64,000 bases of DNA from Pseudalkalibacillus salsuginis (GTDB lineage: Bacteria > Bacillota > Bacilli > Bacillales > Fictibacillaceae), in the NCBI RefSeq assembly GCF_021646685.1, contig NZ_JAKJHW010000003.1:248001-312000 (forward strand), read 5' to 3'. The translations under genes and the position numbers were made by a program. Shown piece after piece: positions 48,740 to 51,202 of this stretch. How positions within the stretch are numbered: position 1 is the stretch's first letter; every line of letters starts with the position of its first letter. The notes under the pieces were generated by a model. That model was not told the origin of the DNA. It worked only from the letters and a program-made list of their open reading frames with translations, and did no database searches.

Positions 48740-48867
48740 TTTACAATTAACCAGGAAGAAGATATAATGGGTGAACGATAATAAATCGTAATAGTTACGA
48801 TTTAAGCCAACGGGTCGAATCTCTATTGGCAGGCCTGTCGTTTCTAAATCGTAATGATTACTATTAA
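48740..48867 (+). promoter_or_regulatory. SigA promoter with two Zur boxes
   Basis: TTTACA (48740-48745) and TATAAT (48763-48768) are 17 bases apart. Box 1, TAAATCGTAA-TAG-TTACGATTTA (48782-48804), has perfect 10-bp arms and matches the Bacillus Zur core TCGTAATnATTACGA with one substitution at the centre. Box 2 is TAAATCGTAATGATTACTATT (48845-48865) with a degenerate right arm. Both lie downstream of the transcription start, so Zur with zinc would block transcription. Confidence 0.8.
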
Positions 48868-48899
48868 TGGTCATTTTTTGTTGAAAGGAGCTAATGGAT

Positions 48900-49169
48900 A
48901 TGGCTAAAAAATCAAAAGTTGCTAAGGAAAGAAAGAGACAAGAACTCGTTGAGAAATATGCTGAAATCCGCAAAAAGTTGAAGGAAGAAGGGGATTACGA
49001 GGCACTAAGGAAACTGCCTAGAGACTCTTCTCCAACACGTTTGAACAATAGATGCCAGGTAACGGGAAGACCGAGAGGCTACTTAAGAAAGTTCAAGATG
49101 TCCCGGATCGCTTTTCGTGAGTATGCACATAAGGGTCAAGTTCCAGGCGTCAAAAAATCAAGCTGGTAA
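48900..49169 (+). CDS. rpsN2: Zinc-independent ribosomal protein S14 (alternative RpsN)
   Basis: 89 residues ([20 protein letters not shown] start). The long form without the zinc ribbon: only one Cys, in [17 protein letters not shown], where zinc-binding S14 has two CxxC pairs. It replaces the zinc form under zinc starvation, releasing zinc. AAAGGAG at 48884 places the start at ATG 48900, not the ATG at 48894. First gene after the Zur boxes; corresponds to B. subtilis yhzA. Confidence 0.93.
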
Positions 49170-49192
49170 CACCTTAGAAGGAGAGACTAACT

Positions 49193-50353
49193 ATGAAGGA
49201 ATGGCTGATAATCGGCGGAGGGATCCATGGTTGTACCATTGCTACGTTCTTGCTGAAAAACGGGAAGGTAGACATACACCATCTTCAGATCATTGATCCA
49301 TCACCAGTTCCGATGCGAAGGTGGAAACAGCTTACTTCAAGAATCGGAATGGATTACCTTCGTTCTCCTGTCGTCCATCATGTCGATACACATCCATCCA
49401 GCCTTGAAAGATACGCCAAGCGTCTTAATTTTGATAATGCATTCTATGGGTACTACCAGAAACCTCATTTAGAATTGTTCAATCATCATTGCCATCACAC
49501 TTTTAGTGAAATTCAATTGCATAAAGCCTGGAAGATCGGATATGTAAATGAGCTGGAGTATAAGGGTAATCATTGGATCGTACGAACAAGCGATGGTCAA
49601 TCTGTCCCTTCAAAGAGAGTTGTTTTAGCAATAGGTGTCAATGATCAGCCTTCTTATCCATACTGGGCAAAAGAACTGAATGAACGGCACCCTGAAAAGG
49701 TCTTCCATATCTTTGATAAAAACCTGCCTTCAATGGAAAGCGGATCCGTACCTGTGGCTATCATAGGGGGAGGCATTACTGCTGCTCACCTAATAAATAA
49801 AATCTGTGATGATGTTCCGGTTATACAGGTTAAACGGCATCTAAACAGGGTTCATGAATTCGATAGTGATCCAGGCTGGATGGGCCCTAAATATATGCGG
49901 AAATTTTATAGGGTGGAAAATTATGATGAACGGCGAAAGATCATTACACAGGCAAGGCATAAAGGATCGATAACCCAGCATTTATTTCACAAGCAGAAAC
50001 ATTTAGAACGAAAGGGTCGATTGATGACTGTTACGGGAGAAGTGATGAACTGTTCCATGGATGAACATTCCCAGCTCCTCTTCCAGTTTCACAATGGAGT
50101 TCAGCTGAAAGCTTCCCATATCATTCTTGCCACGGGGGTTGAAGGTGCACTTCCTGGTAAGGGGTGGTTAAGTAGGACAATCGAAAAACATGGCTTGAAA
50201 TGTTCAAAATGCGGTTTCCCGATTGTCTCTCCTGAACTGGAATGGGGCAAGGGATTGCATGTAGCAGGGGCTTTAGCTGAACTTGAAATAGGGCCGGTCT
50301 CCAGAAATATTTCAGGAGCTAGAAAAATTGCTGAAAGGTTAGCAGCAATTTAA
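49193..50353 (+). CDS. Zur-operon FAD/NAD(P)-binding protein, monooxygenase-like
   Basis: 386 residues. Three nucleotide-binding signatures in the order of N-hydroxylating monooxygenases: FAD GxGxxG in LIIGGGIHGC (about 5-14), NAD(P) in VAIIGGGITAAHL (about 187-199), and the ATG-type motif IILATGVEG (about 310). A CSKCGF motif (about 338) and many His residues (HHVDTHPSS, NHHCHHTF) are unusual. AAGGAGAG precedes the ATG, 23 bases after rpsN2. The operon implies a role in zinc limitation, such as making a metallophore or a redox function, which is inference. Confidence 0.65.
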   Translation: MKEWLIIGGGIHGCTIATFLLKNGKVDIHHLQIIDPSPVPMRRWKQLTSRIGMDYLRSPVVHHVDTHPSSLERYAKRLNFDNAFYGYYQKPHLELFNHHCHHTFSEIQLHKAWKIGYVNELEYKGNHWIVRTSDGQSVPSKRVVLAIGVNDQPSYPYWAKELNERHPEKVFHIFDKNLPSMESGSVPVAIIGGGITAAHLINKICDDVPVIQVKRHLNRVHEFDSDPGWMGPKYMRKFYRVENYDERRKIITQARHKGSITQHLFHKQKHLERKGRLMTVTGEVMNCSMDEHSQLLFQFHNGVQLKASHIILATGVEGALPGKGWLSRTIEKHGLKCSKCGFPIVSPELEWGKGLHVAGALAELEIGPVSRNISGARKIAERLAAI

Positions 50354-50381
50354 CTCATTCAAACGGTAAGGAGAGATTGAA

Positions 50382-50636
50382 ATGAAAAAAGGAATACATC
50401 CCGCGTATCGACAAGTCGTTTTCATGGATACGAACAGCGGGTTTAAATTTATAACAGGTTCAACCATGTCTTCATCTGAAACAATCGAGTGGGAAGATGG
50501 AAACACGTATCCATTAATTAAGGTTGAGGTTAGCTCAGATACCCATCCTTTTTATACTGGAAAACAGAAGTTCTCAGATCGCGGTGGTCGTGCAGAACGT
50601 TTCTTGAAAAAATACAACATGAAAACAGGCAAATAA
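50382..50636 (+). CDS. rpmE2: Zinc-independent ribosomal protein L31 type B
   Basis: 84 residues with no cysteine at all, beginning [20 protein letters not shown] and containing [13 protein letters not shown]. Type A L31 binds zinc through four Cys; type B does not and displaces it under zinc starvation (B. subtilis ytiA). GGTAAGGAGAG lies upstream, 28 bases after the flavoprotein gene. Confidence 0.95.
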
Positions 50637-50663
50637 ATATCTTCAGAGCAAGGAGAGATCAAG

Positions 50664-51032
50664 ATGAACGATTATTTGTCTGAAATGTTGGCGAGAGAAA
50701 TCGTTGAGGCTTTACCTGGTTATAAGCGTGATCTGTACAAATTCATAGTTGGGCTGGAAGATTCATTGGCACAACAATCTGATACTGCAGATCAATTCAT
50801 GACCTTGATGAAAAAACATTCACCTCTCCATCAAGCAGCGAAGTATTTCCGACGTTCTGTCAAAGAAACGGATCAGCTTATGAAAGAGATTGAAAAGGAA
50901 ATCGATACAGAGTTGAGTTTGCAATTGCAGCATATCGATTGGTTGGATTGCAGTGACGTGATCCGTAAAAGAAGAAGGAACGATAAGCAAGCAGCGTTTT
51001 TGCTTTATATGAATCCGAAAAAAGTCCATTAA
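50664..51032 (+). CDS. Unrecognised helical protein, last gene of the Zur operon
   Basis: 122 residues predicted to be nearly all alpha-helical and strongly charged (YLSEMLAREIVEALPGYKRD; DQLMKEIEKEIDTELSL). One Cys (WLDCSDV) and a basic RKRRRNDK patch near the C-terminus. No signal peptide or membrane helix. CAAGGAGAG precedes the ATG 27 bases after rpmE2, and a terminator follows. I do not recognise the family; the basic patch would allow RNA or ribosome binding. Confidence 0.7.
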   Translation: MNDYLSEMLAREIVEALPGYKRDLYKFIVGLEDSLAQQSDTADQFMTLMKKHSPLHQAAKYFRRSVKETDQLMKEIEKEIDTELSLQLQHIDWLDCSDVIRKRRRNDKQAAFLLYMNPKKVH

Positions 51033-51058
51033 ACCGTCCGCTTGGGCGGTTTTTTCCT
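51031..51058 (+). terminator. Terminator of the Zur operon
   Basis: AAACCGTCC / GGGCGGTTT stem, 4-base loop, TTTTTT tail, directly after the stop. Confidence 0.9.
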
Positions 51059-51118: not shown

Positions 51119-51202
51119 GATTTTATCGGTGCAAACACAAAATATATCGGTGCAGATCCAAATTTTATCGGTGCAAATGAAAAAAATATCGGTGATTCTA
51201 AA
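51119..51202. repeat. Four 21-bp tandem repeats
   Basis: ATCGGTG begins at 51125, 51146, 51167 and 51188, an exact 21-base period. Units read about TTTATCGGTGCAAAtnnaAAA. The array lies between the Zur operon terminator and the NERD gene, and reaches into the end of the latter. Confidence 0.75.

Follow-up and report, generated by a model that had tools for sequence, protein, structure and literature searches.

A Predicted Zur-Type Zinc-Starvation Operon of Pseudalkalibacillus salsuginis with an Uncharacterised Flavoprotein and a 122-Residue Helical Protein

Introduction

Zur represses its target genes when zinc is present, and zinc-free forms of the ribosomal proteins S14 and L31 replace the zinc forms. 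Most accounts of Zur regulons centre on importers, on chaperones and on zinc-free replacement proteins. Here, we analyzed a 64,000-nucleotide stretch of DNA from Pseudalkalibacillus salsuginis (NCBI RefSeq assembly GCF_021646685.1, contig NZ_JAKJHW010000003.1, positions 248,001 to 312,000 of the forward strand; hereafter the window, with positions counted from its first nucleotide), in which an operon adds two further parts to S14 and L31, namely a flavoprotein of 386 amino acids (aa) and a helical protein of 122 aa. The operon type is known, and the flavoprotein and the 122-aa protein belong to families that are uncharacterised as far as we found. We read the locus, with a probability of roughly 55%, as a Zur-repressed zinc-sparing operon in which these two proteins are conserved, patchily distributed members of the response to zinc famine.

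One of the closest described systems is the Zur regulon of Bacillus subtilis (rpsN2, rpmE2, folE2, yciC and znuABC), in which zinc-free S14 and L31 are placed under Zur as at the present locus; the Zur-regulon table in the accessible part of that source has an entry for neither the flavoprotein nor the 122-aa protein (PMC6103462). Such a flavoprotein is likewise not listed in the accessible part of another source on Zur in Bacillus (PMC6336718). B. subtilis, the usual model, has no match to PF13454, the best Pfam domain of the flavoprotein, which may explain why the family has been overlooked; this domain is not specific to the family, and 7 of 14 control genomes match it, B. subtilis not among them.

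Expression of more distant relatives has been described. In Synechococcus 7002, the pAQ7 cluster hemB-II, folE-II, G0131 and G0132 was reported to be upregulated in a zur mutant and with N,N,N',N'-tetrakis(2-pyridylmethyl)ethylenediamine (TPEN) (PMC4628125). SYNPCC7002_G0132, a Zur-regulon gene annotated as an FAD-dependent oxidoreductase (FAD, flavin adenine dinucleotide), was equated with our match by gene order on pAQ7, and the matched protein is a homologue of the window flavoprotein (28.4% identity over 98%). The locus differs from ours in that no S14 or L31 is annotated within 8 kb, the relative lacks a CxxC pair, and no site with five or fewer mismatches to the Bacillus Zur consensus was found in that stretch. 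The Staphylococcus homologue is 35.6% identical to the window flavoprotein, and a Zur box with two mismatches ends 20 nucleotides (nt) before its start codon; the gene differs in lying behind the mnh operon, with no zinc neighbors in the record read. The Staphylococcus aureus gene matched to it by gene order, NWMN_0815/SA0806 ("pyridine nucleotide disulfide oxidoreductase"), was strongly induced, 229-fold with calprotectin and 17.5-fold with sulfide, according to a published table (PMC5480029, Table 1). In a transposon screen, NWMN_RS04610, which carries the same description and may be the same gene, was reported as both induced and needed under calprotectin (PMC11253595). In the accessible parts of the open-access literature we found no reaction assigned to the flavoprotein family, and expression of homologues is in print; the 122-aa family is nameless, and no search aimed at a name was made.

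The Operon and Its Control Signals

The window carries a predicted Zur-type zinc-starvation operon, in which the genes for S14, the flavoprotein, type B L31 and the 122-aa protein lie between a promoter and a terminator, all on the forward strand. The SigA-type promoter (TTTACA-17-TATAAT, 48740-48768) agrees with the consensus at 11 of 12 positions and is followed by two palindromic Zur boxes: box 1 (48783-48803), just past the inferred transcription start, has one mismatch to AAATCGTAATNATTACGATTT, and box 2 (48846-48866) has two. This consensus is that of the Bacillus Zur box (a 9-1-9 palindrome). Such boxes are expected by chance 0.01 times per window (mean of 100 shuffles); the whole source genome holds nine Zur-like sites with at most three mismatches, and none to the reversed consensus. 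We infer from these sites that Zur would bind here in the source organism.

The first gene (48900-49169) encodes an 89-aa S14 of the rpsN2 type (PF00253, NF006477) with a single Cys, and the third (50382-50636) an 84-aa type B L31 (NF002462) with none. Both lack CxxC zinc ligands and are thus predicted to be zinc-free forms; elsewhere in the source genome are a zinc-type S14 paralogue (61 aa, two CxxC) and a zinc-type L31 paralogue with a CxC...CxxC pattern. Between them lies the flavoprotein gene (49193-50353), whose product is identified by Pfam fold domains for FAD and reduced nicotinamide adenine dinucleotide (phosphate), NAD(P)H, by the family motif LRSPxVHH and by its Zur linkage; the fourth gene (50664-51032) encodes the 122-aa protein, whose conserved family is linked to S14 and Zur boxes. 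Intergenic gaps are 23, 28 and 27 nt, AGGAG-type ribosome sites precede all four genes, and an intrinsic terminator (51031-51052) with a 9-bp stem, five GC pairs and a T tail closes the operon. An earlier note on this DNA, made from the sequence alone, had described two Zur-like boxes after a SigA promoter and this tightly spaced gene order ending in a terminator; all of these elements are present where it placed them. In scans of the window, promoter-like sites numbered 4 (5.6 in shuffles) and terminator-like sites 2 (1.7 in shuffles), counts so close to the shuffles that such a scan is not significant by itself.

Linkage of the Flavoprotein Family to Zur Boxes and Zinc Genes

The flavoprotein loci comprised 120 fetched stretches of about 12 kb together with the window and two named relatives, Alkalihalobacillus sp. 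YIM B00296 (L001, 94%) and Bacillus sp. Marseille-Q3570 (L002, 78%); L165-L167 were dropped, which left 120 loci. Labels of neighboring genes were assigned from example sequences, and COG0523 was checked with Pfam in one Metabacillus member and in the haloarchaeal ones.

In 116 of the 120 loci, the 1.7 kb before the flavoprotein gene contain a Zur box with at most 3 of 20 positions mismatched, as compared with 17 of 244 same-size windows at locus ends. When only the 270 nt before the flavoprotein start are considered, 92 loci have a box with at most three mismatches, whereas the reversed consensus gave none (never fewer than five mismatches) and a downstream window gave one. Three weaker flavoprotein matches of other kinds had no Zur box (best 6-7 mismatches). 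The neighbors also point to zinc: a COG0523 GTPase gene in 72 loci, S14 in 40 (none of these 40 with two CxxC), the 122-aa family in 30, the two genes of a YcgR/YcgQ-type permease pair in 34 and 33, a ZnuA-type gene in 17, type B L31 in 10 and FolE2 in 8. No other labelled gene accompanies the flavoprotein at 13 loci. The flavoprotein thus tracks Zur boxes, zinc-free S14 and COG0523, a co-occurrence that the earlier note had proposed as a check. Together with the counts for the 122-aa family given below, these data suggest that both families almost certainly belong to the Zur regulon.

Relatives extend beyond the order, and the family spans Bacteria and Archaea. It occurs in 21 plasmid records, including those of Staphylococcus, Picosynechococcus, Leptolyngbya and haloarchaea; the two weakest matches there, from Streptomyces and Salimicrobium (about 23% identity), may be other flavoproteins. 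Among 398 genomes of the phylum searched at E 1e-30, the family was found in three, including the source genome, all within the order of the window; this sample understates its spread, since a Staphylococcus homologue exists. Haloarchaeal and cyanobacterial relatives are 25.7-28.9% identical to the window protein. Metal-importer and/or COG0523 genes adjoin the relative in seven of eight haloarchaeal loci, an S14 gene is also present in four of the eight, and all five GTPases tested were of the cobW type (Pfam). The S14 proteins of these four loci contain two Cys but lack a CxxC, and hence look zinc-free. In three of four cyanobacterial loci, hemB/folE paralogues or COG0523 genes are neighbors. 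In two haloarchaea, a gene for a DUF7124 protein directly follows the flavoprotein gene (L169, 9238-9645; L172, 7241-7624).

The 122-aa Family

Of 397 genomes of the order, 106 matched a profile built from 28 members of the 122-aa family at E 1e-3, 97 of them with E <=2.1e-10. A first count of Zur boxes was confined to flavoprotein loci, and it was therefore repeated on 60 loci away from the flavoprotein. A Zur box was present within 1.5 kb of the gene at 55 of these independent loci and within 300 nt upstream of it at 21, some genes having a box of their own that starts 35-150 nt before the start. S14 is present in the 9-kb stretch of 45 of the 60 loci; in 35 of those 45 it lies on the same strand at most 0.6 kb before the 122-aa gene, with L31 between the two in nine. 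The 122-aa family, like the flavoprotein, thus tracks Zur boxes and S14. Both families occur together in 71 genomes, the flavoprotein alone in 49 and the 122-aa protein alone in 26 (Fisher p 1e-24, not corrected for descent). In named plasmid records, the protein is "hypothetical" in two of three, and the third has no feature there. On a plasmid of Priestia sp. J2 (L282, 3184-8354), genes for type B L31, S14 and the 122-aa protein run into an opine-metallophore biosynthesis operon.

The protein had been described from sequence as basic and helical. A structure model is all-helical, as expected, at modest confidence (predicted local distance difference test, pLDDT, 68), and matches no PDB fold at E <=0.001. 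The window protein itself is neutral (20 Lys plus Arg, 20 Asp plus Glu), and net charge is negative in 21 of the 28 members, zero in four and positive in three, so the basic character did not hold. Searches of the window protein against Pfam, NCBIfam, PHROGs and the PDB gave nothing convincing; PDB profile matches, the best of them to BAI1-associated protein 2 (E 0.016), were regarded as noise from helical sequences. The suggestion that the flavoprotein and the 122-aa protein act jointly on the ribosome is weakened: the link to S14 stands, but the supposed basic partner is neutral to acidic and the two families are often found apart.

A possible but rather unlikely role is that the 122-aa protein is a nucleic-acid-binding regulator with a helix-turn-helix in its middle, which would tune transcription or translation in zinc famine. 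Weak helix-turn-helix matches in a few members, at residues 48-89 where shown, are consistent with this role, as are the all-helical model and the members' own Zur boxes at several loci. However, the window protein has no helix-turn-helix match, the best member reaches E 0.00035 with 28 scanned, the family is mostly acidic, and the model lacks a fold match.

Enzyme Class of the Flavoprotein

Three Pfam domains match the window flavoprotein above cut-off: PF13454 (53.8 bits), PF07992 and PF13434. The last of these scores 31.7 bits against a cut-off of 21.3 in a partial alignment (protein residues 126-315, profile positions 130-336 of 339). The protein falls short of the cut-off of every NCBIfam enzyme model, histamine N-monooxygenase scoring 21.6 against 700 bits, and other members of the family gave mixed NCBIfam matches, mostly of MnmC type, ArsO type and thioredoxin reductase. 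A single-sequence search of the PDB returned nothing useful. Among the best 60 of 104 matches of a profile search of solved structures were FSP1, flavin monooxygenases, thioredoxin reductases and Baeyer-Villiger enzymes, aligned for the most part over the NAD(P) part; the only long alignments among these 60 were to 6xbb ("Monooxigenase") and 3s5w (ornithine monooxygenase). A profile of the first 126 aa brought up no N-hydroxylating monooxygenase among the best 60 of 76 PDB matches. These matches make an NAD(P)H-dependent FAD enzyme of the monooxygenase/two-dinucleotide-fold type the most likely identity of the flavoprotein, and we are rather confident that it is a redox flavoenzyme using NAD(P)H.

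Invariant positions in 39 diverse members include L56, R57, S58, H62, P91, F96, P156, H172, G194, W229, R247, G315, P343, L349, W351 and G367, and 113 of the 120 proteins of the main set carry LRSxx[VIA]HH. A CxxC had been noted from sequence; it is kept in the main set (C337 in 108 and C340 in 119 of 120) but is gone from the Staphylococcus, cyanobacterial and haloarchaeal relatives. A disulfide reductase with a catalytic CxxC was therefore rejected, as the distant relatives leave no conserved CxxC disulfide in the family. The observation that the flavoprotein is His-rich is true of the window protein (7.0%), but the family averages 4.2%, which makes it partly a local trait.

Proposed Mechanism and Alternatives

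In the reading that we prefer, Zur would sit on the two boxes just past the promoter when zinc is present and block transcription. In zinc famine the operon would open, and S14 and L31 would be swapped for their zinc-free forms, so that zinc is spared or freed. The flavoprotein, which is often without a labelled zinc partner, would probably work largely by itself on a common substrate of the cell. Its role would be a redox step by which a non-homologous enzyme that needs no zinc bypasses a zinc-dependent one. We rank this bypass before a partnership with COG0523 and N-hydroxylation for a zinc ligand, and hold its chance of being right to be somewhat below even. Knowing the reaction of the flavoprotein would show by what further means cells cope without zinc.

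A wider proposal, which we advance tentatively, is a trans-domain zinc-famine module. Flavoprotein, COG0523 GTPase and zinc-free S14 would form it in Bacillales and haloarchaea, and the flavoprotein would also serve in cyanobacteria and Staphylococcus, with a novel flavin reaction dispensing with a zinc enzyme; the 122-aa protein, co-transcribed with S14, would be a second factor and a downstream regulator.

Several points weigh against the preferred reading. The bypass is deduced from the usual make-up of Zur regulons, and we identified no zinc enzyme whose reaction would match. The distribution of the flavoprotein is patchy, with 7 of 34 genomes in the taxonomic family of the source organism and 127 of 397 in its order at E 1e-3 (120 at E <=1e-15). 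Four of the 120 loci lack a Zur box at three mismatches (best 4, 6, 6 and 7), and where the 122-aa gene lies at a flavoprotein locus, a box is present within 1.5 kb in only 24 of 30 cases. No zinc genes were found within 5 kb of the relatives in one haloarchaeon (H17), one cyanobacterium (H13) and Salimicrobium (H21, 22.6% identity). An AlphaFold model of the flavoprotein built from three sequences (pLDDT 47) was too poor to use. The groups that carry the family are mostly aerobic, and this distribution, with the fold class, is the basis for a possible use of O2, on which we would give even odds. Finally, NWMN_0815 is presumably the Staphylococcus homologue, a tie that comes from gene order after mnhG and not from sequence.

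One alternative is that the COG0523 GTPase has the flavoprotein as its redox partner, with thiol oxidation or reduction by the latter releasing zinc from, or loading it into, client proteins. The genes are often together (72 of 120 loci); in 37 loci COG0523 comes next after the flavoprotein among the labelled genes, in the same direction and with a gap below 200 nt. The pairing recurs in haloarchaea. In Corynebacterium glutamicum, Zur is reported to control an oxidoreductase gene, cg0795, that is transcribed divergently to a COG0523 gene, and the authors of that study propose that the two act together (PMC2823685). On the other hand, 48 of the 120 loci have no labelled COG0523 within flanks of about 5-6 kb, and the CxxC pair is missing in the Staphylococcus, cyanobacterial and haloarchaeal relatives. 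We consider this partnership unlikely.

Still less probable, in our judgment, is the synthesis of a small zinc ligand through N-hydroxylation of an amine or amino acid by the flavoprotein, an idea that the earlier note had drawn from the motif order of the protein. The N-hydroxylating ornithine, lysine and histamine monooxygenases do have two dinucleotide-binding motifs and an LATG segment arranged as in this protein. PF13434 scores over its cut-off, the histamine N-monooxygenase model gives a weak match, 6xbb and 3s5w gave the long structure alignments, and Zur-like boxes precede Fec-type and Opp-type importers in the source genome that could carry a metallophore. The resemblance is nevertheless incomplete, as the PF13434 match is partial, PF13454 scores higher and no equivalog model reached its cut-off; the window protein (386 aa) is shorter than 3s5w (463) and 6xbb (425) and has its own LRSPxVHH motif. 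N-hydroxylases carry a GxGPxx FAD motif, whereas GGGIHG of the flavoprotein is an ordinary GxGxxG. A zinc-binding metabolite finds no support in the neighborhood: no metallophore genes were recognised by eye among the 70 largest neighbor groups of flavoprotein loci, and co-occurrence with opine-metallophore dehydrogenase over the 397 genomes (14 of 35, 10.6 expected, p 0.25) is not significant, with no match to that enzyme in the source genome.

Hitchhiking by chance, which the position of both genes downstream of rpsN2 and behind its promoter might suggest, has next to no prospect of being right, since, unless the box counts are wrong, it is already refuted by the cross-genome Zur linkage, with a box in the 270 nt before the flavoprotein gene at 92 of 120 loci, yet S14 in only 40, and a box within 300 nt upstream of 21 of 60 independent 122-aa genes.

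Other Zinc Genes of the Source Genome and Minor Features

The source genome encodes three FUR-family proteins. One gene, directly after zinc-importer-type genes (labels by eye), is likely zur, judging from this position. Other Zur-like boxes in the genome precede three ZnuA-type genes, one of them with two boxes, as well as a short COG0523 open reading frame (ORF), a Fec-type importer and an Opp-type importer (labels likewise by eye). The COG0523/YciC-type ORF under its Zur-like box (L276, 5809-6030, G000:C3) stops after 73 aa and may therefore be a truncated remnant. The boxes at the importers belong to a Fec-type ATP-binding cassette importer operon (L274, 5288-9088) and an Opp-type one (L275, 2129-7075); as the genome has no opine-metallophore dehydrogenase match, these importers may perhaps take up zinc complexes that others produce. 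About 70 bases past the operon terminator, a 21-base tandem repeat comprises 3.4 copies of TATCGGTGCAAATACAAAATA (51124-51194).

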